A model generated the notes under the pieces. The model was not told where the DNA came from. It did no database searches and saw nothing but the letters and a program-made list of their open reading frames with translations. This document shows positions 7,519 through 41,795 of a stretch of 64,000 bases of DNA, piece by piece. Numbering within the stretch: position 1 is the first letter of the stretch; each line of letters begins with the position of its first letter. The position numbers and the translations under genes were made by a program. The stretch comes from Zoogloea sp. (lineage in GTDB: Bacteria; Pseudomonadota; Gammaproteobacteria; Burkholderiales; Rhodocyclaceae), in the NCBI GenBank assembly GCA_016703645.1, contig JADJBR010000004.1, forward strand, positions 62,001 through 126,000, given 5' to 3'.

Positions 7519-9698
7519 CGGCAACTGAAAGCGCCCGCATACTTGTTGTGGACGATGATCCCCTGACCCGCCTGATGGCCTCCGAGGCGCTGCGCGAGGG
7601 GGGCTTCGTGACGCTGGAGGCGCAAGACGGTGCACAGGCGCTCGGCATGTTCGACGCGGCCGTGCCGGATCTGGTCCTGCTGGATGTGATGATGCCCGGT
7701 CTGAGCGGCTTCGAGGTCTGCGAGCAGATTCGTGCCCGGCCCAACGGTGCGTTGGTGCCGATCATCATGCTCACCGGGCTGGATGATGGCGACTCCGTGC
7801 AGCGCGCGTTCGACGTCGGTGCCACCGACTTCATCTCGAAGCCGATCAACTGGACCCTATTGCGTTTCCGCATTCGTTACGTACTGCGTTCGGCCCAGGT
7901 CATGAAGGAGCTGACGCGCAACAAGGAAAGCCTCTCCAACGCCCAGCGCATTGCCCGTCTCGGAAGCTGGGAGTGGCTCGTCGGAGATGACCGGGTACAG
8001 CGCTCCGATCAGTACTACCGGCTTTTTGGCCAGCCAGCCAGCGCTTTCGGCGCAGGGATGGAGGCCGTGCTGGACCATGTCTATCTGCCGGACCGGCCCC
8101 TTGTGGCGGCGGCCCTTGAAGGCGCCCGCCGCGGCGTCGGCTTCCAGCTCACCTATCGGGTGGTATGGCCAGACGGGAGCGTCCGGACCGTTGTGGAAAC
8201 CGTCGAGCCCGGGGACTCAAGCGAAGGGGCCGGACTGGTGATGGAGGGCAGCGCCCAGGACATCACCGATCAGGTCGATGCCCAGCGGCGAATCCGTCAG
8301 CTTGCGTACTATGACCACCTCACCGGGCTCCCCAATCGGGAGTTCTTCCGCGAAAACCTTCTTGGCGCAGCCGTGCGCTGCCTGCGTAACGACAGCCGAT
8401 GTGCCGTGATGGTGGTGGATATCGACCGCTTCGCGCGCATCAACGACAGCCTGGGCCCCGAGCGGGGGGATCAGGTGCTTCAGGTCATCGGCCACCGGCT
8501 ACGGGAGTGCATGGGTGACCGGGCGCCCGCCGAGCCGGCCGGCGGAGGCGCCTTGCCCAGCTTCAAGGTGGCGCGTCTTGCCGCCGATGAATTCGGCATC
8601 CTGATGCCGGACGTGGGGCATCTGGATGAGGCGGTGGCGGTCGCCCATCGCTTGCTGGGGGTGGTGCGTGCCCCCATTCACGTGCCCGGGCAGGACATCA
8701 CCCTGTCTGCCCGCATCGGGCTTGCGGTGATGCCTGATCATACCGGCGACGCCGACGCCCTCCTGAAGGCCGCCGAGACCGCCCTCAACCGGGCCAAGCG
8801 TACCAATGGCGAGCCGGTTGCCCTGTTTTCCGAGGAGATGAAGGTCGCCGCCTTTCTGCGCTTCACGCTTGAGGGTGAGTTGCGCCGGGCCATCGGCGAT
8901 CATGAGTTGCGGGTCGTCTATCAACCCATCGTCGATGCCGCGACCGGCATGATTGTGAAAGCAGAGGCCCTCGTGCGCTGGCCTCACATGGGTCGCGGGC
9001 CCGTACCGCCGCCCGAGTTCATCTCCCTGGCCGAGGAGACGGGCATGATCGTGCCCCTCAGCCGCGAGGTTTTCGAGCGCGTATGTGCCGACATTGCCGA
9101 GCTCGAGGCCGACATGCCTCCCGGCTTCCGGATCAGCGTCAATCTCTCGGGGGTCAATTTCATGGACGCCCAGCTGATCCCCACCGTGCGTGCGGAACTG
9201 GCCAAGGCCGGTGTGCCGGCCTCGCGCATCGAGTTTGAGCTCACCGAAACGGTGCTGATGCGTGACCTGGATTACGCCACGGGCATCCTGGCCCAGTTGC
9301 GGGAAATGGGTGTGCGGGTGGCCGTGGATGATTTCGGCACGGGCTACTCATCCCTTGCCTATCTGCGCCGTCTGGCCGTGGATACCCTGAAGATCGACAG
9401 ATCCTTTGTGAGCGAACTGGACGATGGTCAGGGGATCGCGATCGTCGAAGCAGTGATCGGGCTGGCACACAGCCTCGGCCTGGAAGTGGTCGCAGAGGGC
9501 GTCGAGACGATCTCCCAGCTGGCGGCGCTGCACCAGCGTGGCTGTCATCTGATCCAGGGTTATCTGTTTGCACGGCCCATGTCGGCCAAAATGCTTTCCC
9601 AGGCCTTGCAGAGCGGCATCCGCATGCCCCCCGGCTTGTCCCTGCCCATGGTCGGGAAGGATGAGGGCATGTTTCTGGGTTCCTTCAGCAGCCCATAG
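7515..9698 (+). CDS. Response regulator with PAS, degenerate GGDEF and EAL domains
   Basis: Cytoplasmic c-di-GMP phosphodiesterase-type output protein, 727 residues. It has an N-terminal receiver ([19 protein letters not shown], lysine in ISKPINW), a PAS-like segment (about 145-255), a GGDEF domain whose signature is changed to AADEF ([11 protein letters not shown]), and a complete EAL domain. EAL evidence includes [40 protein letters not shown] and EGVE. The cyclase half is therefore probably inactive or GTP-sensing, while the EAL half looks catalytic. The start overlaps the kinase stop (ATGA), so phosphotransfer from that kinase is likely. Confidence 0.92.
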
Positions 9699-32003: not shown

Positions 32004-32831
32004 ATGACCCATTACCCGTTCCCCTCCCCGTGCGCCAGTGGCAGCCAGTTCCTGAAGGGCTGGCAAATCGCCTGGGCGCAGATCGATGGCAGCCGTCACC
32101 TCATCAACGAAGACCGGCTCGCCCATCGCGCTGTGCAGTTTCCCGGCGAAGCGAGCCAGGCGCTCTTTGCCGCCCTCGCCGACGGTGTTGGCGGTGGTGC
32201 ACGGGGCGACGTCGCGGCGCAAGCCCTGGTCGAGTACAGCGTCGCCCTGCATCCGTCCGACTACCTGCGCGCTGCCGCTATCGCCACCCACTTGGCCGGC
32301 GCCGATGAGCACGTCCAGGCCGCCCTGCGCGAAGTCACCTTCGCCCCCGGCGCTACCACCCTGGCAGCAGCCTGGCTGGGCAGCGATGGCCGCGGCCACA
32401 TCCTGCGCGTGGGGGATTCCCGACTTTACCGCCTTACCCCAAAAGCCATCGAGCCCCTCACCTGCGACCAAACCTACGCCTACACCGGCGAGCCCGTGCC
32501 CGACGGCTACGCCCCCGACGATCTCGCCAACATGGTAGGCACCGGCCACATGGGCGAACCTGAAATCCAGCCCATCCACCTCGCCCCCGGCAGCCACCTG
32601 CTGCTGTGCTCCGATGGCCTGCATCGCGGCCTTGATGATGCGGCACTTCACAACGGCTTCTACGCCGCCCTGAACACCCACAAGGGCCAACTCGAACCCA
32701 CCGCCCGTGCGCTCTGCCAAGCCGCCCGCGCCGCCGGCAGCGAAGATGACATCAGCCTCATCCTCATCGGCCGCTCGTCGCCGCCCCAAGCCACCGGCTG
32801 GCGGCGCTGGTGGCCGTTCCGAACCAGGTAG
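32004..32831 (+). CDS. PP2C-family serine/threonine phosphatase
   Basis: 275 residues, soluble. Metal-binding and catalytic motifs of the bacterial PP2C/PppA type are present: INEDR, ALADGVGGGARGDVAAQALVE, GATTLAAAWL, LRVGDSRLYRL, LLLCSDGLHRGLDD and GSEDDISLILI. It dephosphorylates Ser/Thr phosphoproteins and should counter the adjacent kinase-like protein. It sits between the FHA and kinase genes, the classic trio in actinobacterial cell-wall operons and in type VI secretion control. The upstream gap of 108 bases shows no copy of the shared island element. Confidence 0.92.
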   Translation: MTHYPFPSPCASGSQFLKGWQIAWAQIDGSRHLINEDRLAHRAVQFPGEASQALFAALADGVGGGARGDVAAQALVEYSVALHPSDYLRAAAIATHLAGADEHVQAALREVTFAPGATTLAAAWLGSDGRGHILRVGDSRLYRLTPKAIEPLTCDQTYAYTGEPVPDGYAPDDLANMVGTGHMGEPEIQPIHLAPGSHLLLCSDGLHRGLDDAALHNGFYAALNTHKGQLEPTARALCQAARAAGSEDDISLILIGRSSPPQATGWRRWWPFRTR

Positions 32832-32879: not shown

Positions 32880-34991
32880 ATGAAAGATCACGCCGAAGAC
32901 CAGGCCTCCCCGTTCAGCTCCCGCTGGGAAAAAACCTGTGCGCTGTTCGACCCCACCATCTCCATTCGCGAGCACGCCATCGTGTCACCGGACGGGGCCA
33001 AGCGTGTGTGGTTCAGCCGCGACTGGAGAAACTACGACAACGGTGCGGCCGTATGGACCAAGAAATACGACAAGCTCGGCTACGATCTGCGTAGCTTCAA
33101 TACCGCCGAGCGCGATATCTTGCAGTCGCTCAAGCTCCTGCCGAACTGCTACCAGTTGGTCGAGAACTACGACAAGACCAGCAAGCTTGCCCCGCTCGAC
33201 CCAAAAGCCCAAAGGTCGGGGAGCTACATCGCCATGACCGACATGGGCCCCACGGCCTACGACTGGCTTGAGTGGCCCGTGCGCGTCGGTGTCGAACGCC
33301 GGCGTCTCGACAACCTCTTCGCGCTTCCGGGCAACTTCATTCGTCTTGCGCTCGCCGGGCTGCGATCGCTCAGCGATATCCACGACAAGAACTTCGTGCA
33401 CCTGGACTATCGCCTGCCCAATGTGTGCCTTGCCCCGCGAGGCAGGTCGATCCCTTGCAAGGATCGCGAGGGTGACTACCTCAAGATCCAGCTCGACTGG
33501 CACACCCTCAAGGCCATCGATTTCGGATTTTCCATCGCCCGTGGCAAAACCCCCTATACCCTGCTGCCGCCCCTGGAGGATGCGACCTCCGCAGCGAGGG
33601 CGCTCATCAAGCAGGTGGAAGAGATCGGGCGCGACAGGTTCAATAGCCTGATGCCCACCGAACGCAATGCGCTCAAGGCCCGTGATTTCTCCGACGTACA
33701 GCACAATCACACCTTCTGGACGAGCCATTGCCCCGGCACCCTCGACCGCCTGCGTGCCATCGACTGGCGCGAAGACTGCTATCAGTTTGGCAAACAGCTA
33801 CAGATGGTTCGTGAGAACGCCAGGCTGCTCGAATTCGCCGACCAATACCGCAATCTCCCAAATGTGGGTGGGGTCATATCCGCCATCGAGGAACTGCCGG
33901 AAAAACTGATTGCCCTCGGCCAACGTGTCGTCGCCTACCCGGCGCTCGGCTCGCCCGAAGCGGCGGAGCTTGAGCAGCAACGCAAAGACACCTACCGCCT
34001 GCGCATCCGCGAGCTCGAAATCGCCATCCGGGACATGCCCCCCGACTGGTCCACCGACGAGGTGCTGATCTTCCGCAGCGACATCGAACCCCACGCCAGA
34101 GCTGAGCCCAGGCACACCGCCGTCCGCCCGTCCGAGCCCTGGCTAGGCAAGTTGCCGTGGAAGAAAGTCGCCATCGCCGTGGCAGGCAGTGCAGCCCTTT
34201 TTGCCGTCCTGCCCAGCCTGCAAGCGTGGACCAAGTCCATGAGCACCCCCCCGCTTGTCGCCGAGGCCGATCCGCCCGCCCAGCCTCCGGCCGAACCTTC
34301 GAGGCCCGCCGCACGCCCCCCCGCCCAGCCGCAACCCACCCAGGAAGAACTCGCCGCCCGCCGCGCTGCCGAAGAAGCCGCCAATGCCGCCCAGATCAAA
34401 GCCGCCGCCCTTGCCGCCTGGCGCAAGGAAGCTGCCGAGATCGAGCAGACCCCGTGGTGGCGCAACAACACCGGCAAGCCCACGGCGGCCCAGCTCGCCT
34501 GGGTGCGCGAAACCCAGCGCCTCGCCAGCGAATACGCCGAACTCGCTCCCCTCATCGACCTCGCCGGTCTGCACTGCTCCGGCCGCGCCGCGCCGCTGAT
34601 CGCCCGCAGCAGCGCCGAATGCGGCCGCCGTCTGAGCGCCGTTCTCCAGCACGCCGACTTTGACCCCGACAAGCAACAAGACTTGCTCAAACGGATCGTC
34701 GTCATCCTCGAGGCCCGGGTTTACAACCACCAGCCCGCCCAGGCCGACACCGCTTTCGCCACAGCCATCCTGTCCGGCCTGACGGCCCTCGGCGGCCAAG
34801 TTGCCCCGTTCGCTTTCCACGCCAGCTACATCCAGGGCTGCGTGCAGCAACCCATGCAACTCGCCGCCGCCGGCAAGCAACTCGAAACCTTGCTCGAACG
34901 CTGGCCCAAAAGCGGCACGGCCCGCGAAGCCCGCCGCCTGGAATGGCCCGAACGCCTCCAGCGGGGTGACAATCTGTGCGTGAATCCTTGA
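32880..34991 (+). CDS. Membrane-anchored protein-kinase-like protein
   Basis: 703 residues. The N-terminal ~300 residues are a divergent protein-kinase fold: FVHLDYRLPN holds the catalytic-loop His174, Asp176 and Asn181, and KAIDFGFSI holds the DFG at Asp214. The usual HRDxK is HLDxR, and the glycine-rich loop and ATP lysine are not obvious, so activity is probable but unproven. One membrane helix lies near residues 428-447 (WKKVAIAVAGSAALFAVLPSL). A Pro/Ala-rich stalk and a helical periplasmic domain with several Cys follow. The topology (cytoplasmic kinase, extracytoplasmic sensor) parallels PknB-type kinases. Directly followed by the FGE genes, whose exported products could be its ligands or partners. 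Confidence 0.82.
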   Translation: MKDHAEDQASPFSSRWEKTCALFDPTISIREHAIVSPDGAKRVWFSRDWRNYDNGAAVWTKKYDKLGYDLRSFNTAERDILQSLKLLPNCYQLVENYDKTSKLAPLDPKAQRSGSYIAMTDMGPTAYDWLEWPVRVGVERRRLDNLFALPGNFIRLALAGLRSLSDIHDKNFVHLDYRLPNVCLAPRGRSIPCKDREGDYLKIQLDWHTLKAIDFGFSIARGKTPYTLLPPLEDATSAARALIKQVEEIGRDRFNSLMPTERNALKARDFSDVQHNHTFWTSHCPGTLDRLRAIDWREDCYQFGKQLQMVRENARLLEFADQYRNLPNVGGVISAIEELPEKLIALGQRVVAYPALGSPEAAELEQQRKDTYRLRIRELEIAIRDMPPDWSTDEVLIFRSDIEPHARAEPRHTAVRPSEPWLGKLPWKKVAIAVAGSAALFAVLPSLQAWTKSMSTPPLVAEADPPAQPPAEPSRPAARPPAQPQPTQEELAARRAAEEAANAAQIKAAALAAWRKEAAEIEQTPWWRNNTGKPTAAQLAWVRETQRLASEYAELAPLIDLAGLHCSGRAAPLIARSSAECGRRLSAVLQHADFDPDKQQDLLKRIVVILEARVYNHQPAQADTAFATAILSGLTALGGQVAPFAFHASYIQGCVQQPMQLAAAGKQLETLLERWPKSGTAREARRLEWPERLQRGDNLCVNP

Positions 34992-35016: not shown

Positions 35017-36180
35017 ATGACAAACCGTCTTCGCCCCTCCCGCCTTTCAAGCGCCCTGGTCTCTATTCTGTTCAGCCTGCCCGTCTGCGCCGCCGGGCTT
35101 GGCGGTGGCTTGGAGGACTACACCCCACCTCAGCCCCCCGCCAAACCCAAACCCCAGGTGGTCGAAAAGATCGTCGAGAAGCCGGTCAAAGACCCTGCCA
35201 CCGAAAGGCGCGCCCAGGCCGCCGAAACGGACAGCCGCAACAAGGACGCGGAAATCGCCCGCCTGAAAGCCGAGCTGGACAAAGCCCGCAAGCAGCCCCC
35301 CAAAGTGTTCGAGCGGGTGGTGGAAAAGGTGGTCGAAAAGCCCGTCCCCGTCCCCGCCGGTGATCCGGCCGCCGCCTGCAGGAAGAACGGCGCTTGGCAA
35401 GCCGCCTGCGGCTTTGCCACCTACCCCGCCGGACCGGTGTTCCGGGTAGTGGGTGGCAATCTGAGCTTCGCAATGGGCTCACCCGCAACGGAGAAGGGTA
35501 GGGAAATCGACGAGGGCCCCCAGCGCCAGGTGCGCTTCCGGCACCGCTTTGCGCTGGCCGAAACCGAAGTCACGGTGGCCCAATACCTCACTTGCGTGGA
35601 CGAGGGCGGCTGCAAGGAGCCTGAATGGCGTGAGGCAGGCGCCCCCACTTCTTACCGGGAACGCAACGCCCATTTGCCCGACAGCCCGATCACTGGCGTC
35701 AGCTGGACCAACGCTAAGGAGTATGTGACCTGGCTGAGCCGCAAGAGCGGGCACACCTACACCCTACCCACCGAAGCCCAGTGGGAACATGCCGCCCGTG
35801 GTAACCAGCGCGGAAGCTGGTACTTTGGCAATAATGTAAGCCAGTTCAAGGACCACGCTTGGTCTATCGAAAACGCCGGCGGCAAACTGCACCCGGTGGG
35901 CAGCACCCGGCTCAATACCCATCCCTGGGGCCTCAAGGACATGGCCGGCAATGCCTGGGAATGGGTGGAAGACTGCAGGCACGACAGCTACAAGAGCGCG
36001 CCGGCAAACGGCGACCAGGCCTGGGAAGGCGCAAATGGCGGAGATTGCAGCCAGCGCATACTTCGCGGCGGCTCCTGGGTCAGCCTTACGTGGTACACCC
36101 GCGCCGCCGACCGCGTCGGGAGCTCGGCCGACTACCGCGGCGACATCGTCTCGTTCCGTCCCTCCCGGATGCTGCCGTGA
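35017..36180 (+). CDS. Exported FGE/C-type-lectin-fold protein, copy 1 (DGR target type)
   Basis: 387 residues. The N-terminal signal sequence ends LPVCAAG (a weak lipobox is possible). It is followed by a Pro/Lys/Val-rich segment (VVEKIVEKPVKD), a short coiled coil and an FGE-sulfatase domain from about residue 135: AETEVTVAQYL, PITGVSWTNAKEYVTWLS, YTLPTEAQWEHAARG, NTHPWGLKDMAGNAWEWVEDC, ILRGGSW. The catalytic cysteines of true formylglycine-generating enzymes, expected after GGSW, are missing, so it is probably a binding protein. Residues 349-387 are a DGR-like variable region. It starts 25 bases after the kinase stop, so it is probably co-transcribed. Confidence 0.9.
   Translation: MTNRLRPSRLSSALVSILFSLPVCAAGLGGGLEDYTPPQPPAKPKPQVVEKIVEKPVKDPATERRAQAAETDSRNKDAEIARLKAELDKARKQPPKVFERVVEKVVEKPVPVPAGDPAAACRKNGAWQAACGFATYPAGPVFRVVGGNLSFAMGSPATEKGREIDEGPQRQVRFRHRFALAETEVTVAQYLTCVDEGGCKEPEWREAGAPTSYRERNAHLPDSPITGVSWTNAKEYVTWLSRKSGHTYTLPTEAQWEHAARGNQRGSWYFGNNVSQFKDHAWSIENAGGKLHPVGSTRLNTHPWGLKDMAGNAWEWVEDCRHDSYKSAPANGDQAWEGANGGDCSQRILRGGSWVSLTWYTRAADRVGSSADYRGDIVSFRPSRMLP
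36061..36177 (+). other. DGR-like variable region of FGE copy 1
   Basis: Encodes LRGGSW ... SFRPSRMLP. Compared with copy 4, 14 codons after GGSW differ by 17 bases, every one at codon position 1 or 2, none at position 3. The 3' part from TCGTTCCGTCCC to beyond the stop is identical. This is the pattern left by adenine-directed mutagenic retrohoming. Confidence 0.75.
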
Positions 36181-36186
36181 GGCAGC
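36171..36186 (+). repeat. Stop-codon hairpin at the end of variable region 1
   Basis: GCTGCC-GTGA-GGCAGC, a 6-bp stem with a 4-base loop holding the TGA stop. Repeated after all four FGE genes. DGR target sites need a short hairpin or cruciform just after the variable region; this fits in size and place. Confidence 0.65.
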
Positions 36187-36231
36187 TCAGCCCATGGCAC
36201 CCTTACTCCTTTACCCCGTGGAAGCAAAGAA

Positions 36232-37419
36232 ATGACAGCCAGTAATGAACCTGATGAGGGCGAGGAAGCGGCAGCGGGGTTCGGGGGCGCAGCCCCCGAT
36301 GGTTTGCAGAACGCCTGCCTTTATGCTGTCCTTGCGTTTTCCCTGTTCAGCCTTCCTATCTGCGCCGCGGGTCTGGGCGGGTTGAATGACGAGTACGTCC
36401 CGCCGCCGCCCGTGAAGCCCAGGCCGCAGGTAGTCGAAAGAGTCGTTGAAAAGCCGGTCAAGGATCCTGCTGCCGAAAGGCGCGCCCAGGCCGCCGAGGC
36501 GGAAATCGCCCGCCTGAAGGCCGAGCTGGACAAAGCCAACAGGCTCACCGACCCGGCGTCCGCCTGCCTGAAGAACGGCGCCTGGCAAGCCGCTTGCGGC
36601 TTTGCCGCCTATGCGGGTGGGCCTGTGTTCCGGGTGGTGGGCGGAGATTTGCGATTCATGATGGGTACCGCAAAGGGCGCGGACAGCATGGCTGATGATT
36701 ACGAAGGCCCGCAGCGCCAGGTCAGTTTCCGGCGCCGCTTTGCCCTGGCGGAAACCGAAGTCACGGTGGCGCAGTACCTGGTCTGTGTAAAGGACGGCGG
36801 CTGCAAGGAACCCGAATGGCGTGAAGCGGGCAGTGAAGAGCACTATCAGACTGGAGGGAACGCCTATTACCGGGACATCAATGTCGATCAACCGGACTCC
36901 CCGATCACGGGGGTCAGCCTGCACGACGCACGGGCCTACGTGGCGTGGCTGAGCCGCAAGACGAGGCAGGTCTATACCTTGCCAACTGAAGCTCAGTGGG
37001 AATACGCCGCTCGCGGCGGCCGTACGGGGCGCTGGTATTTCGGCGACGACGAAAGTCAGTTGAGGGACCATGCATGGTACGACGCCAACTCGGGTGACAA
37101 ACTGCACCCGGTGGGCAGCACGCGGCTCAACACCCACCCCTGGGGCTTGAAGGACATGGCCGGCAATGCTTCTGAGTGGGTGGAAGACTGCCGGCATGAC
37201 AATTACACCAATTCCCCGGCAAACGGCGACAAGGCCTGGGAGGGCGCCAATGACGGAGATTGCTCCTGGCATGTGGTTCGCGGCGGTTCGTGGCGCGAGG
37301 GTGCATGGGGTAGCCGTGCCGCCAGCCGCCTCTGGGTCTCGACTGACAGGCGCGATTGGCTTCCATTCAGCGAAAGAGGCAATAGTGTTTCGTTCCGTCC
37401 CATCCGAATGCTGCCGTGA
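36232..37419 (+). CDS. Exported FGE/C-type-lectin-fold protein, copy 2, with chimeric N-terminus
   Basis: 395 residues. The first ~28 residues (MTASNEPDEGEEAAAGFGGA...) are homologous to the start of the Avd gene at 40352, not to the other FGE proteins. The frame then joins a signal-like helix (YAVLAFSLFSLPICAAGLGGLNDEY) and the FGE domain (AETEVTVAQYLVC, TLPTEAQWEYAARGG, NTHPWGLKDMAGNASEWVEDC, VVRGGSW). A tandem duplication junction created the chimera, and export may be impaired. Its variable region is longer than in the others (TDRRDWLPFSERGNSVSFRPIRMLP). No FGE catalytic Cys. Confidence 0.87.
   Translation: MTASNEPDEGEEAAAGFGGAAPDGLQNACLYAVLAFSLFSLPICAAGLGGLNDEYVPPPPVKPRPQVVERVVEKPVKDPAAERRAQAAEAEIARLKAELDKANRLTDPASACLKNGAWQAACGFAAYAGGPVFRVVGGDLRFMMGTAKGADSMADDYEGPQRQVSFRRRFALAETEVTVAQYLVCVKDGGCKEPEWREAGSEEHYQTGGNAYYRDINVDQPDSPITGVSLHDARAYVAWLSRKTRQVYTLPTEAQWEYAARGGRTGRWYFGDDESQLRDHAWYDANSGDKLHPVGSTRLNTHPWGLKDMAGNASEWVEDCRHDNYTNSPANGDKAWEGANDGDCSWHVVRGGSWREGAWGSRAASRLWVSTDRRDWLPFSERGNSVSFRPIRMLP
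37276..37416 (+). other. DGR-like variable region of FGE copy 2
   Basis: Encodes VRGGSW ... SFRPIRMLP, the most divergent of the four with an in-frame insertion of about 8 codons. Third positions also differ, so this copy has probably not been refreshed from the same template recently. Confidence 0.6.
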
Positions 37420-37425
37420 GGCAGC
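37410..37425 (+). repeat. Stop-codon hairpin at the end of variable region 2
   Basis: Same GCTGCC-GTGA-GGCAGC hairpin as the other three copies, although the flanking variable region is divergent. Confidence 0.65.
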
Positions 37426-37536
37426 TCATCCCTCTATCCGTGGGAACAACCGTCGTGCAATACATCGTTTGCTGCGGGTAGCGCGCCCACGCATCTGAGC
37501 GCGACGCCGCCCATTAACCTTGCCCCACCTGCCACC

Positions 37537-38769
37537 ATGCCGAACCTCCTTTACCCTACCCGCCTTGCCAGCGCTCTGGCTGCTGCCCTGTTCAGTCTTC
37601 CGGTTTGCGCTGCGGGTCTGGGCGGGTTGAATGACGAGTACACCCCGCCGCCGGCACCCGTGAAACCCAAACCGCAGGTGGTCGAAAAGATCGTCGAAAA
37701 GCGGGTCAGAGACCATGCCACTGAAAAGCGCGCCCAGATCGCCGAGGCAGAAAGCAAGAGGAAGGACGTGGAGATCGCCCGGCTGAGGGCGCTGGAGGAT
37801 AAGAACGCGCAGTTGCAGGCTGAACTGGACAAAGCTCGCAAGCAGTCGCCCAAGGTGGTGGAGCGGGTGGTAAAGAAGCCCGTGGTGGTGCCGCTGCAGC
37901 CCAGTACACCCGTCCTCGCCAGCGATCCGGCGTCCGCCTGTTGGAAGAACGGCGCCTGGGAAGCCGCCTGCGGTTTTGCCGCCTACGCCGGCGGGCCGCT
38001 GTTCCGGGTGGTGGGCGGCAACCTGAACTTCACCATGGGCTCGCCCTCCACTGAGAACGGCAGGTATTACTGGGAAGCCCCCCGGCATCAGGTGAGCTTC
38101 CAACGCCGCTTTGCACTAGCCGAAACCGAGCTTACGGTGGCCCAGTACTTGGCCTGTGTGGATGACGGCGGCTGCAAGGAGCCCGAGTGGCGGGAAGCGG
38201 GCAGCCAGCACCACTACCAGACCGGCAGCGGTAATCTTTACACCAGTCGCAACGCCCACCAGCCGGACAGCCCGATCACCGGGGTGAGCTGGGACAACGC
38301 CAAGGCCTACGTTGCCTGGCTGAGCCGCAAGACGGGGCAGACCTACACCCTTCCCACTGAAGCCCAGTGGGAATACGCCGCCCGCGGCGGCCAGAGTGGC
38401 CGCTGGTACTTTGGCGACGACGAAAGCCAGCTCAAGGACCACGCCTGGTACGACGCCAATTCCGGCGCCAAGCTGCACCCGGTGGGCAGCACCCGCCTCA
38501 GCACCCACCCCTGGGGGCTGAGAGACATGGCCGGCAACGCCAGGGAGTGGGTGGAAGACTGCTGGCACGACAGCTACACCAATGCCCCGGCAAGCGGCGA
38601 CACGGCCTGGGCAGGCGCCAATGGTGGAAGCTGCGGCCTGCGTGTGCTCCGCGGCGGTTCCTGGGAAGGCTTTGCGAGGTTCACCCGCGCCGCCGACCGC
38701 TACAGCGTCTACTCGGCCGTCGACCGCAACTACCTGGTCTCGTTTCGTCCCGCCCGGATGCTGCCGTGA
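37537..38769 (+). CDS. Exported FGE/C-type-lectin-fold protein, copy 3
   Basis: 410 residues. Signal sequence MPNLLYPTRLASALAAALFSLPVCAAG, proline-rich segment, coiled coil (ESKRKDVEIARLRALEDKNAQLQAELDKARK), then the FGE domain (AETELTVAQYLACVDDGGC, TYTLPTEAQWEYAARGG, STHPWGLRDMAGNAREWVEDC, VLRGGSW). Variable tail: EGFARFTRAADRYSVYSAVDR. No catalytic Cys after GGSW. 117 bases separate it from copy 2; that gap holds no ORF, only a sequence similar to the one before copy 4 (CGGGTAGCGCGCC). Confidence 0.9.
   Translation: MPNLLYPTRLASALAAALFSLPVCAAGLGGLNDEYTPPPAPVKPKPQVVEKIVEKRVRDHATEKRAQIAEAESKRKDVEIARLRALEDKNAQLQAELDKARKQSPKVVERVVKKPVVVPLQPSTPVLASDPASACWKNGAWEAACGFAAYAGGPLFRVVGGNLNFTMGSPSTENGRYYWEAPRHQVSFQRRFALAETELTVAQYLACVDDGGCKEPEWREAGSQHHYQTGSGNLYTSRNAHQPDSPITGVSWDNAKAYVAWLSRKTGQTYTLPTEAQWEYAARGGQSGRWYFGDDESQLKDHAWYDANSGAKLHPVGSTRLSTHPWGLRDMAGNAREWVEDCWHDSYTNAPASGDTAWAGANGGSCGLRVLRGGSWEGFARFTRAADRYSVYSAVDRNYLVSFRPARMLP
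38647..38766 (+). other. DGR-like variable region of FGE copy 3
   Basis: Encodes LRGGSW ... SFRPARMLP. The frame around TRAADR and YLVSFRP is conserved, while the codons between vary, mostly as NNC-type codons (TAC, AGC, GTC, GAC, AAC) expected from mutated AAC codons. Confidence 0.7.
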
Positions 38770-38775
38770 GGCAGC
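38760..38775 (+). repeat. Stop-codon hairpin at the end of variable region 3
   Basis: GCTGCC-GTGA-GGCAGC, identical to the other copies. Confidence 0.65.
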
Positions 38776-38820
38776 TCAGCCCCTGGCCCCCTTGCCCCTT
38801 TATCCCGTGGAGACGACACG

Positions 38821-38955
38821 ATGACCGAATGGAATGAACCTGATCAGGGCGATGCAGCTTCCGAAGCGGGGTTGGGGGGGCGCGGCCCCCGACGGCTTGC
38901 AAAACGCCCGGCTTACCCCAACTTGGTCGACCGCAAACCGGAATACAAATCGTGA
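38821..38955 (+). pseudogene. Fragment of the Avd gene start between FGE copies 3 and 4
   Basis: Opens MTEWNEPDQGDAASEAGLGG like the Avd gene at 40352 (MTEWDEGDQGDGAPEAGLGG). A G7 run here, against G6 there, shifts the frame, and it stops after 44 codons before any Avd helix. It marks the unit of tandem duplication: FGE gene, hairpin, start of avd. Confidence 0.75.
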
Positions 38956-39025
38956 CACCTGTTACGGGTAGCGCGCCCCGCGTATACCCGTGACTTCGTC
39001 ATTTACCCTTGCCCTACCTGCCTCC

Positions 39026-40300
39026 ATGCCGAACCTTTCCTGCCCCACCCGCCTTGCCAGCGCTCTGGCTGCTGCCCTGTTCAGTCTTCCGGTTTGCGCT
39101 GCGGGCCTGGGGGGGTTGAATGACGACTACACCCCGCCGCCGGCACCGGTGAAATCCAAGCCCCAAGTGGCGGAGAAAGTGGTCGAAAAGATCGTCGAAA
39201 AGCCGGTCAAAGATCCCGCCACCGAAAAGCGCGCCCAGACCGCCGAAGCGGAGCGCAGACGGCTCGAGGCAGAAAGCAAGAGGAAGGACGCTGAGATCGC
39301 CCGGCTGAGGGCGCTGGAGGATAAGAACGCACAATTGCAGTCCGAACTGGATAAGGCCCGCAAGCAGCCGCCCAAGGTTGTCGAGCGGGTGGTGGAGAAG
39401 GTGGTCGAAAAGCCGGTGGTGGTGTCCTCGCAACCCAGCGCGCCCGTCCCTGCCAACGACCCGGCATCCGCCTGCTGGAAGAACGGTGCCTGGGAAGCCG
39501 CCTGCGGTTTTGCCGCCTACTCCGGTGGGCCGGTGTTTCGCGTGGTGGGCGGAAACCTGAGCTTCAGCATGGGTTCGCCTGCGACAGAGAAGGATAGGGA
39601 TGACGACGAAGGCCCTCTGCACCCGGTCAGTTTCCAGCGTCGCTTTGCGCTGGCGGAAACCGAAGTCACGGTGGTCCAGTACTTGGCCTGTGTGGATGAC
39701 GGCGGCTGTAAGGAGCCTCACTGGCGCGAGGTAGGCAGCCAATACCACTACCAGACCGGCAGCGATAATTTCTACACCAGTCGCAACGCCCATCAGCCGA
39801 CCAGCCCGATCACCGGGGTGAGCTGGGCGAACGCCAAGGACTACGTGGCGTGGCTGAGCCGCAAGAGCGGGCAGAGCTTCACCCTTCCAACGGAAGCCCA
39901 GTGGGAATATGCCGCCCGCGGCGGTCAGAGCGGGCGCTGGTACTTTGGCGACGACGAAAGCCAGTTGAAGGACCACGCCTGGTACGGTGCTAACGCGGGC
40001 AGCAAGCTGCACCCGGTGGGCAGCACCCGCCTCAACACCCACCCCTGGGGCCTCAAGGACATGGCGGGCAATGCCCGGGAATGGGTGGAAGACTGCTCGC
40101 ACAGCAATTACGCCAATGCCCCGGCAAACGGCGACAAGGCCTGGGAAGGCGCCAATGGCGGAGATTGCGGTACGCGCGTGCTCCGCGGTGGTTCCTGGGA
40201 CAGCGTTACGTGGTTCACCCGCGCCGCCAACCGCGACAGGGGCACGTCCGGCATCCGCGGCAGCTACCTCTCGTTCCGTCCCTCCCGGATGCTGCCGTGA
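39026..40300 (+). CDS. Exported FGE/C-type-lectin-fold protein, copy 4
   Basis: 424 residues from the ATG at 39026 (MPNLSCPTRLASALAAALFSLPVCAAG), which matches the copy-3 start. A GTG at 38990 would add 12 residues. Signal sequence, Pro-rich segment, coiled coil longer than in the other copies, and FGE domain (AETEVTVVQYLACVDDGGC, FTLPTEAQWEYAARGG, NTHPWGLKDMAGNAREWVEDC, VLRGGSW). Variable tail DSVTWFTRAANRDRGTSGIRGSYLSFRPSRMLP. Closest to the avd-RT gene, so by usual DGR layout the most direct retrohoming target. Confidence 0.9.
   Translation: MPNLSCPTRLASALAAALFSLPVCAAGLGGLNDDYTPPPAPVKSKPQVAEKVVEKIVEKPVKDPATEKRAQTAEAERRRLEAESKRKDAEIARLRALEDKNAQLQSELDKARKQPPKVVERVVEKVVEKPVVVSSQPSAPVPANDPASACWKNGAWEAACGFAAYSGGPVFRVVGGNLSFSMGSPATEKDRDDDEGPLHPVSFQRRFALAETEVTVVQYLACVDDGGCKEPHWREVGSQYHYQTGSDNFYTSRNAHQPTSPITGVSWANAKDYVAWLSRKSGQSFTLPTEAQWEYAARGGQSGRWYFGDDESQLKDHAWYGANAGSKLHPVGSTRLNTHPWGLKDMAGNAREWVEDCSHSNYANAPANGDKAWEGANGGDCGTRVLRGGSWDSVTWFTRAANRDRGTSGIRGSYLSFRPSRMLP
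40181..40297 (+). other. DGR-like variable region of FGE copy 4
   Basis: Encodes LRGGSW ... SFRPSRMLP. Differs from copy 1 only at codon positions 1 and 2 after GGSW (17 differences), then is identical through the stop hairpin. Confidence 0.75.
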
Positions 40301-40306
40301 GGCAGC
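40291..40306 (+). repeat. Stop-codon hairpin at the end of variable region 4
   Basis: GCTGCC-GTGA-GGCAGC, as in the other copies; about 46 bases before the avd-RT remnant start. Confidence 0.65.
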
Positions 40307-40351
40307 TCAGCCCATGGCCCCCTTACCCCTTTACCCCGTGGGAGCGACAAG

Positions 40352-40960
40352 ATGACCGAATGGGATGAAGGTGATCAGGGCGACGGAGCGCCCGAAGCGG
40401 GGTTGGGGGGCGCAGCCCCCGACGGTTTGCAGAGCGCCCGCCCCGCCCAGCGCCCCAACCTGGCACTGGGCAAGGCCACCCTCTTTGCCACCTGGCTGAT
40501 CCCGGTGCTGGAGGGCTTTCCGCGCAGCCAGCGCTTTTTGCTGGGCGACCGGCTGCAGGGCAACACCCTGGACATCATCGAGGGGCTGGTCGAAGCCGGC
40601 TACCAGAAACAGCCGCAAGACACGCTGCGCCGGGTGAATGTGCTGCTTGAAAAACAGCGTGTGCTGTTTCGCCTGGCCTACAACCTGCGCCTCCTGGATG
40701 GGCGCCGCTACGAACTGGCCGCCCGCAAGCTTGATGAAATCGGCGAAAAGGTGGCCTGTATCATCGACGGCTCCAACGAGCAGGTGCGCTGCGACGGGCT
40801 TTTTACCGGCGATGATCTGCTTATCCCGCTTGAGCGCAGCCGCGGCCTGCCGCTGGGCAACCTGACCAGGCAGATGTTGGGCAATTTCTTCCTCGACCGT
40901 TTTGACCACTTTGTAAAGGCTCGCCCATGGCCGCTTTGCCCACAGCCATGGGCTGCGTGA
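40352..40960 (+). CDS. avd: Avd-like protein fused to an internal fragment of a DGR reverse transcriptase
   Basis: 202 residues. After a ~33-residue leader, residues ~40-135 are a four-helix Avd-type domain (ATWLIPVLEGFPRSQRFLLGDRLQGNTLDIIEGLVEAGY, RRVNVLLEKQRVLFRLAYNLRLLDGRRYELAARKLDEIGEKV). The frame then jumps into reverse-transcriptase sequence: GDDLLIPLERSRGLPLGNLT followed by RQMLGNFFLDRFDHFVK, typical of DGR enzymes (RGLPIGNLTSQ...DHFVK). It ends before the YxDD catalytic box. The 5' part of the RT, the usual place of the template repeat between avd and rt, and the RT 3' half are all missing. This looks like deletion decay of a DGR; retrohoming would need an RT elsewhere. Confidence 0.8.
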   Translation: MTEWDEGDQGDGAPEAGLGGAAPDGLQSARPAQRPNLALGKATLFATWLIPVLEGFPRSQRFLLGDRLQGNTLDIIEGLVEAGYQKQPQDTLRRVNVLLEKQRVLFRLAYNLRLLDGRRYELAARKLDEIGEKVACIIDGSNEQVRCDGLFTGDDLLIPLERSRGLPLGNLTRQMLGNFFLDRFDHFVKARPWPLCPQPWAA

Positions 40961-41157
40961 CAAGCGGTTTCCACAGGGTTGGTTTGCGGAAAAGTGTCGT
41001 CCCACCCCTATGCTGCCAGCCAGCATCCAGGCCCGGCAGGCAATGGCAGCAAACGCCCGGTGTCTCTGGCCGCAAGGCGACACCGGGCGTCCCACCGCTA
41101 CTTTCTTCGCGGCCTTGCTCTATGATGAAGCCGGATTGTGTTTTGGGAGACGAAGAC

Positions 41158-41448
41158 ATGAAGCCCTCTGAAGCCTTGGCGTCGAACCGTGCCGCGATCC
41201 GGCTTGTGGTCGAGTCTCACCGTGCCCGCAATGCTCGGGTCTTCGGCTCGGTGCTGCACGGCCAGGACACTGACAGCAGTGACCTGGATATCCTGATCGA
41301 CCCGACCCCGGAGACGACGCTGATGGACGTGGCCGCCATTCAGGTCGAACTGCAACGCCTGCTCGGCGTGCCGGTCGATGTGCTGACGCCCGGGGCGCTG
41401 CCCGACACCTTCCGCAGTGTGGTGGTGGCTGAGGCGGTGCCGGTATGA
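41158..41448 (+). CDS. mntA: MNT-type nucleotidyltransferase (MntA-like antitoxin)
   Basis: About 96 residues from the ATG at 41158 (GGGAGA upstream). Contains the minimal nucleotidyltransferase motif GSVLHGQDTDSSDLDILID. In type VII toxin-antitoxin pairs, MntA AMPylates the HEPN toxin HepT to silence it. The next gene is a HEPN protein starting in the stop codon (ATGA overlap), which confirms the pairing. Confidence 0.88.
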   Translation: MKPSEALASNRAAIRLVVESHRARNARVFGSVLHGQDTDSSDLDILIDPTPETTLMDVAAIQVELQRLLGVPVDVLTPGALPDTFRSVVVAEAVPV

Positions 41449-41795
41449 GCAAGGCGATGCCCGTGCCGGACTACCTCGGGCACATCCTCGAAGCGATCGA
41501 GCGCATCGACCGTTACACGGAAGACATGGATGAAGTGGCCTTCCTGAACAGCGAGCTGGTTCAAGACGCCGTAATCCGCAACATCGAGATCATCGGCGAG
41601 GCATCGAACAACATCCTGCGCATTGCCCCTGAATTCGCCGCACAGCACGACGACATTCCATGGCAGGTCATGTACACGATGCGCAACCGCGTCTCGCATG
41701 GCTACGCCAAGGTGGACCTTGAAATCGTCTGGAAGACGATTCAGGGCGATCTGCCGCGGCTCTATCAGCAGGTACGTGCCATTTCGGTTCGATGA
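41445..41795 (+). CDS. hepT: HEPN-domain toxin (HepT-like)
   Basis: 116 residues, all-helical HEPN fold. The conserved stretch MRNRVSHGYAKVDLEIVW carries the Arg/His motif of HEPN ribonucleases followed by Tyr, the site AMPylated by MntA in characterised pairs. Partner of the MNT gene upstream. Likely stabilises the island or acts as a stress or phage-defence module. Confidence 0.88.
   Translation: MSKAMPVPDYLGHILEAIERIDRYTEDMDEVAFLNSELVQDAVIRNIEIIGEASNNILRIAPEFAAQHDDIPWQVMYTMRNRVSHGYAKVDLEIVWKTIQGDLPRLYQQVRAISVR

Follow-up and report, generated by a model that had tools for sequence, protein, structure and literature searches.

The window analysed here is a stretch of 64,000 nucleotides from a Zoogloea sp. 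genome. Four homologous genes stand in it in tandem, each ending in GGSW...SFRPxRMLP as originally noted, and all four match the FGE-sulfatase family PF03781 in a profile search, with E values from 2e-40 to 8e-45. Identity to copy 4 is 82% for copy 3, 75% for copy 1 and 70% for copy 2. Each copy opens with a signal-like start, judged by eye, which is followed by a charged stalk and then by the FGE-sulfatase domain; on the strength of the signal-peptide-like start the products are probably exported. The catalytic pair of FGE enzymes consists of two cysteines located shortly after the GGS[W/F] motif. None of the four copies has a cysteine from GGSW onward, and therefore the catalytic pair is absent, as had been proposed. 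We infer that the targets are binding or recognition proteins.

No close relative of the targets was found outside their own genome. Matches at E 1e-30 were found in 9 of 60 relatives and at E 1e-50 in 1 of 150 genomes of the family, the own genome being counted in both cases. A search of a collection of genome contigs returned one distant planctomycete FGE, and a search of viral contigs returned none. An AlphaFold run on four sequences gave no usable model (mean pLDDT 34).

The array is preceded by a PP2C-type phosphatase gene and by a gene for a protein of 703 residues, which we take to be kinase-like from motifs recognised by eye. The latter has no match in Pfam, NCBIfam or PHROG and none better than E 0.25 in the PDB, and among 60 relatives it is present in its own genome only (0 of the 59 others). 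The probably exported targets may possibly work together with the products of these two genes. The features of the locus are summarized in Table 1, where DGR stands for diversity-generating retroelement, a bacterial system that purposely rewrites the ends of target proteins. We also note a nucleotidyltransferase and HepT pair, of the MntA/HepT-like toxin-antitoxin type, directly after the broken cassette described in the next section.

Table 1. Features of the target array and its surroundings, in window coordinates
Feature	Position	Strand	Remarks
PP2C-type phosphatase	32004..32831	+	PF13672 E 3.3e-14; upstream of targets
Kinase-like gene (presumed)	32880..34991	+	703 aa; motifs recognised by eye; upstream of targets
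Target gene copy 1	35017..36180	+	387 aa; PF03781 E 2.7e-42; DGR-type variable end
Variable region core, copy 1	36079..36156	+	identity to copy 4 runs on to 36198
Inverted repeat over stop codon	36171..36186	+	6 bp, GTGA loop; identical in sequence at each of the four copies; evidence weak
Target/avd junction relic after copy 1	36181..36319	+	aligns with 40301-40442 (144 columns, 82%)
Hairpin 3' of copy 1	36281..36299	+	G-N-A triloop (GCA) on a stem of 8 bp; candidate mark of a target
Target gene copy 2	36232..37419	+	395 aa (ORF list); PF03781 E 2.1e-40; DGR signature absent
Target gene copy 3	37537..38769	+	410 aa; PF03781 E 8.2e-45; signature equivocal
Target/avd junction relic after copy 3	38770..38910	+	aligns with 40301-40440 (142 columns, 87%)
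Hairpin 3' of copy 3	38876..38890	+	6 bp, GCG loop
Target gene copy 4	38990..40300	+	436 aa; PF03781 E 8.8e-43; DGR-type variable end
Variable region core, copy 4	40199..40276	+	compared with copy 1
Remnant ORF	40352..40960	+	202 aa; Avd then RT fragment in frame; adjoins copy 4 downstream
Hairpin 3' of copy 4	40406..40420	+	G-N-A triloop; 6 bp, GCA loop
RT fragment	40757..40918	+	residues 136-189 of the remnant, aligned with 196-249 of the RT frame (392 aa) in L085
Nucleotidyltransferase / HepT pair	41158-41448 and 41445-41795	+	PF18765 E 1e-7; PF01934 E 6e-29

The Avd and reverse transcriptase remnant

An accessory Avd gene, which the original prediction did not cover, adjoins the targets downstream of copy 4. 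The Avd part of this remnant matches phrog_3206 (E 4.2e-14) and the bAvd family PF22296, with 39.5 bits against a cut-off of 40 and with 41 bits in a second search. It continues in frame into a piece of a reverse transcriptase (RT) that matches phrog_1423 (E 5.5e-5) and shares 59% identity over 54 residues with the RT of L085, another locus of the genome. The fragment contains the GLPxGNLTxQ box and stops before YxDD; about 195 residues are missing before it and about 140 after it. An intact DGR reverse transcriptase is thus absent from the array, where only the piece corresponding to residues 196-249 remains, and the window part of the contig has no match to RVT_1. A repeat element was considered as the cause of the deletion and rejected, as the sequence from 40900 to 41130 is single copy at E 0.001. 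The remnant is matched in 3 of 60 relatives, own genome counted, and in none of the 22 congeners searched.

The stretch that joins copy 4 to avd recurs after copies 3 and 1, which suggests that the array probably grew by duplication of a unit comprising a target and the start of avd. The stretch was not found after copy 2, and the 5' end of the ORF listed for copy 2 overlaps the relic of the avd start.

Codon positions, adenines and the search for a template

Copies 1 and 4 differ after GGSW at 17 of 78 bases, with 10, 7 and 0 differences at codon positions 1, 2 and 3, and the differences are spread over 14 codons as counted by eye on the alignment. This is followed by 48 identical bases (36151-36198), the identity extending 18 bases beyond the stop codon. 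Upstream of GGSW, the same two genes differ by 51/45/127 at the three positions over 350 codons, and the absence of third-position change after GGSW is significant (Fisher p 1.4e-6). These counts bear out the pattern originally reported, in which the changes near the end spare the third position while third-position differences are common elsewhere in the genes. The Nei-Gojobori estimates give dS 0.68 and dN 0.154 for the FGE domain before GGSW and dS 0 and dN 0.278 after it. Control pairs of variable regions with known templates in the same genome behave alike, with 7/9/0 for L017, 9/12/0 for L018 and 8/8/1 for L016 compared with the remote target L084.

The claim that all four genes carry DGR-type ends holds for copies 1 and 4; the other two lack a clean signature. 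Copy 3, which is one codon longer, gives 11/7/4 against copy 1 and 14/6/4 against copy 4 with the best single gap, and its signature is equivocal with four third-position differences. Copy 2 exceeds copies 1 and 4 in length by 8 codons; it has 10 third-position differences to copy 1, 10 to copy 4 and 15 to copy 3, and no DGR signature is shown for it.

A query with an inferred template in the own genome gave 27 matches: three of the four genes (copy 2 being absent), 18 weak matches and six other templates, namely C7:1522k, C7:1332k, C7:1885k, C7:648k, C10:531k and C4:241k. Each of the six directly follows a TGG codon, as do the variable regions, and the alignment register was therefore not a matter of choice. 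On the template C7:1522k, 16 of the 17 variable sites fall on adenines (28 A among 78 bases; p 2.5e-8, or 3.4e-5 when restricted to codon positions 1-2), and on the other five 12-15 of the 17 sites do so, with p within positions 1-2 from 5.5e-5 to 0.015. These p values are uncorrected and come from templates that are themselves related; all six are paralogous, and the cognate one is missing.

The adenine-bearing template that was expected somewhere in the genome did not come to light, which is the first of the two outcomes that the original prediction had named as counting against it. The 24-base 3' end, with at most 3 mismatches, occurs in the whole genome at four places, which are the four genes themselves. 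The actual variable region of copy 4 as a query returned the four genes and 27 weak matches of 14-27 bases. Copies 1 and 4 show 16-25 non-adenine mismatches in 84 positions to each of the six templates, copies 2 and 3 being left out of these counts because of their extra codons. The ten template and variable-region pairs that belong to the six templates show 0, 0, 0, 0, 0, 1, 1, 2, 2 and 10. None of the six templates matches, and the genome, in 10 contigs, is rated 100% complete; the rewriting of copies 1 and 4 therefore seems to have ended in this genome, provided that no variant absent from the assembly retains the missing parts. The targets had been described as made hypervariable; the marks of DGR variation stand in copies 1 and 4, and for the genome as assembled the statement belongs in the past tense, as no template was found and the RT is reduced to a fragment.

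Hairpins and the other DGRs of the genome

The sequences 3' of the variable regions were scanned for hairpins with a perfect stem of at least 6 bp and a G-N-A triloop, within 150 bases of the variable core. Such hairpins are present at 7 of 17 variable regions (copies 1 and 4, L020, two at L083, L015 and L085), where the G-N-A class was defined post hoc after the hairpins had been seen and the 17 regions, which include paralogous pairs, are not independent. None of 8 templates has one. Across 583,416 strand-bases there are 24, equal to 0.006 per 150 bases, and this background count includes the scored hits. The GCG loop at copy 3 and the absence of a G-N-A hairpin at copy 2 are in step with the lack of a clean signature in these copies. 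No stem with any triloop was found at 7 of the 17 regions (copy 2 and both regions each of L017, L018 and L086), and at L016 and L084 the loop reads AGC. The inverted repeat over the stop codon is a weak candidate for a DGR hairpin: about 17% of random 110-mers would hold a stem of this kind, and 0 of 13 paralogous variable regions have it at that place.

RVT_1 is matched 16 times in the genome, in some cases by several pieces of one gene. Four open DGR-type RT frames (L015, L016, L017 and L018) adjoin templates. The gene order in L085 and L016 is target, avd, RT and template, and in L015 the template lies between the target and avd. L015 (G000:C7:640000-655000) has an open RT frame of 375 residues; unlike other pairs, its template and variable region differ by 10 non-adenine mismatches in 84. 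At L020 (G000:C7:1515000-1528000) the RT is split into two frames of 291 and 174 residues, either by recent decay or by a sequencing frameshift, and the template and variable region are 1 non-adenine mismatch apart. The template of L016 (G000:C10:525000-540000) matches the variable region at 9514 of L084 (G000:C10:600000-618000), ~78 kb away, with 1 non-adenine mismatch, compared with 2 to its own local variable region. At L083 (G000:C4:233000-250000; C4:241k) a template core at 8647 has 0 and 2 non-adenine mismatches to its two variable regions, at 8344 (+) and 9287 (-). A search of the 17 kb of L083 with four RT motif strings gave one isolated GIPLG and zero YxDD-type boxes, with zero RVT_1 matches, and it is possible that its targets are acted on in trans.

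A probably frozen array and its relation to known systems

The same-genome controls, the placement of variable sites on the adenines of paralogous templates, and the adjoining Avd/RT remnant together give good support to the view that the variation in copies 1 and 4 arose through a DGR. Most likely, what survives here is a decayed DGR that rewrote its targets at an earlier time and left them as frozen variants. The ancestral cassette would have contained a probably exported target of FGE/C-type-lectin fold, followed by avd, RT and a template repeat, and tandem duplication of the target gene with the start of avd would have given four targets. As long as template and RT were present, copying of the template RNA, error-prone at adenines, would have yielded cDNA that was substituted for the ends of copies 1 and 4 at least. 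These two would thereby have kept the same third positions and 3' sequence and acquired 14 scrambled codons. Deletions would then have taken approximately the first half of the RT, everything after the 54-residue piece, and the template, so that the variants became frozen. We infer this order of events, as well as the location of the template and the loss of activity. If the cassette had the gene order of L085 and L016, the second deletion would have taken the template too; the arrangement in L015 makes the place of the lost template uncertain.

The absence of any synonymous difference after GGSW between copies 1 and 4 suggests that the last rewriting is not very old. This also fits a cassette that is broken only in the assembled variant, while other cells keep RT and template and still diversify the targets, a situation for which DGR 3 and DGR 7 of Thiohalocapsa PB-PSB1 provide a published precedent (PMC10907252). 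We regard this as quite unlikely here. The targets might also still be rewritten in trans from a template elsewhere in the genome by another of its RTs, given the four open RT frames beside templates and the remote target L084 with its single non-adenine mismatch to the L016 template. The search could overlook a template whose anchor is much shorter or has diverged; nevertheless, no template with this 3' end was found and the six that were found are too distant, by 16-25 non-adenine mismatches, which makes rewriting in trans most improbable.

An explanation that dispenses with a retroelement is that gene conversion first made copies 1 and 4 alike at their ends, after which diversifying selection altered 14 codons. 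The copies are tandem, their identity runs 18 bases beyond the stop codon, and selection would act on surface positions of this fold. However, 17 nonsynonymous changes stand against 0 synonymous ones, the changed sites coincide with adenines of paralogous templates, and Avd and RT remains adjoin the genes, and we hold this explanation to be highly improbable as well.

The decayed array may also be viewed against the genome as a whole, with its six templates, the template/target pair for which no RT was found in 17 kb, the remote target and the array itself, for which no template was found. These could be components of one dispersed DGR network whose templates, RTs and targets have separated. 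Its targets would be marked by a downstream G-N-A triloop hairpin in place of the GRNA tetraloop of the phage type, and the targets of the window would have dropped out of it with the decay of their hairpins (absent at copy 2, with an altered loop at copy 3), template and RT. We put this forward tentatively and find it rather doubtful.

Read as a decayed DGR, the array preserves a fossil record of targeted hypermutation that brings its own controls, in which four paralogous targets, two of them with rewriting marks, lie beside a fragment of the enzyme gene, within a genome that retains other DGRs with open RT frames. This suggests that rewriting marks outlive the machinery, and surveys that begin with the RT would miss such loci. 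The template/target pair of L083, near which no RT was found, makes trans action directly testable.

Treponema TvpA (PDB 2y3c) and other FGE/C-type-lectin DGR targets have a related domain and a variable end after GGSW. The whole targets differ, and among solved structures the targets of the window score better with PvdO (5hha; E 3.6e-35), which is not known to be a DGR target, than with TvpA (E 3.6e-20). Known phage target hairpins are GC-rich, with stems of 7-10 bp and 4-base GRNA loops located 4-34 bp downstream (PMC3240598). The candidate GC-rich inverted repeats 3' of the present variable regions resemble the BPP-1 type as described there, but they consist either of 6 bp with a GTGA loop over the stop codon or of 6-10 bp with 3-base G-N-A loops further away. 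The DiGReF survey lists DGRs with up to four variable regions (PMC3521204), and their paralogous neighbouring targets, arising from gene duplication, are comparable to those of the array. In contrast, the multi-variable-region DGRs it describes keep RT and template, neither of which is complete here, and two of our four copies are without a clean signature.

In aggregate-forming and multicellular bacteria, genomes with more than one DGR have been described, together with loci that lack parts and with probable action in trans, and Accumulibacter is named among the bacteria with multiple DGRs (PMC10907252). Thiohalocapsa PB-PSB1 is similar in having several DGRs per genome, loci without RT or template, FGE/C-type-lectin targets and candidate remote targets. 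MITE-like repeats have replaced lost parts there, whereas here the stretch that follows the RT fragment is single copy. The Thiohalocapsa targets carry NTPase or vWA parts, in contrast to the stand-alone targets with a signal-like start in the present array. The DGR is a known kind of system, and the array in the window is a new instance of it.
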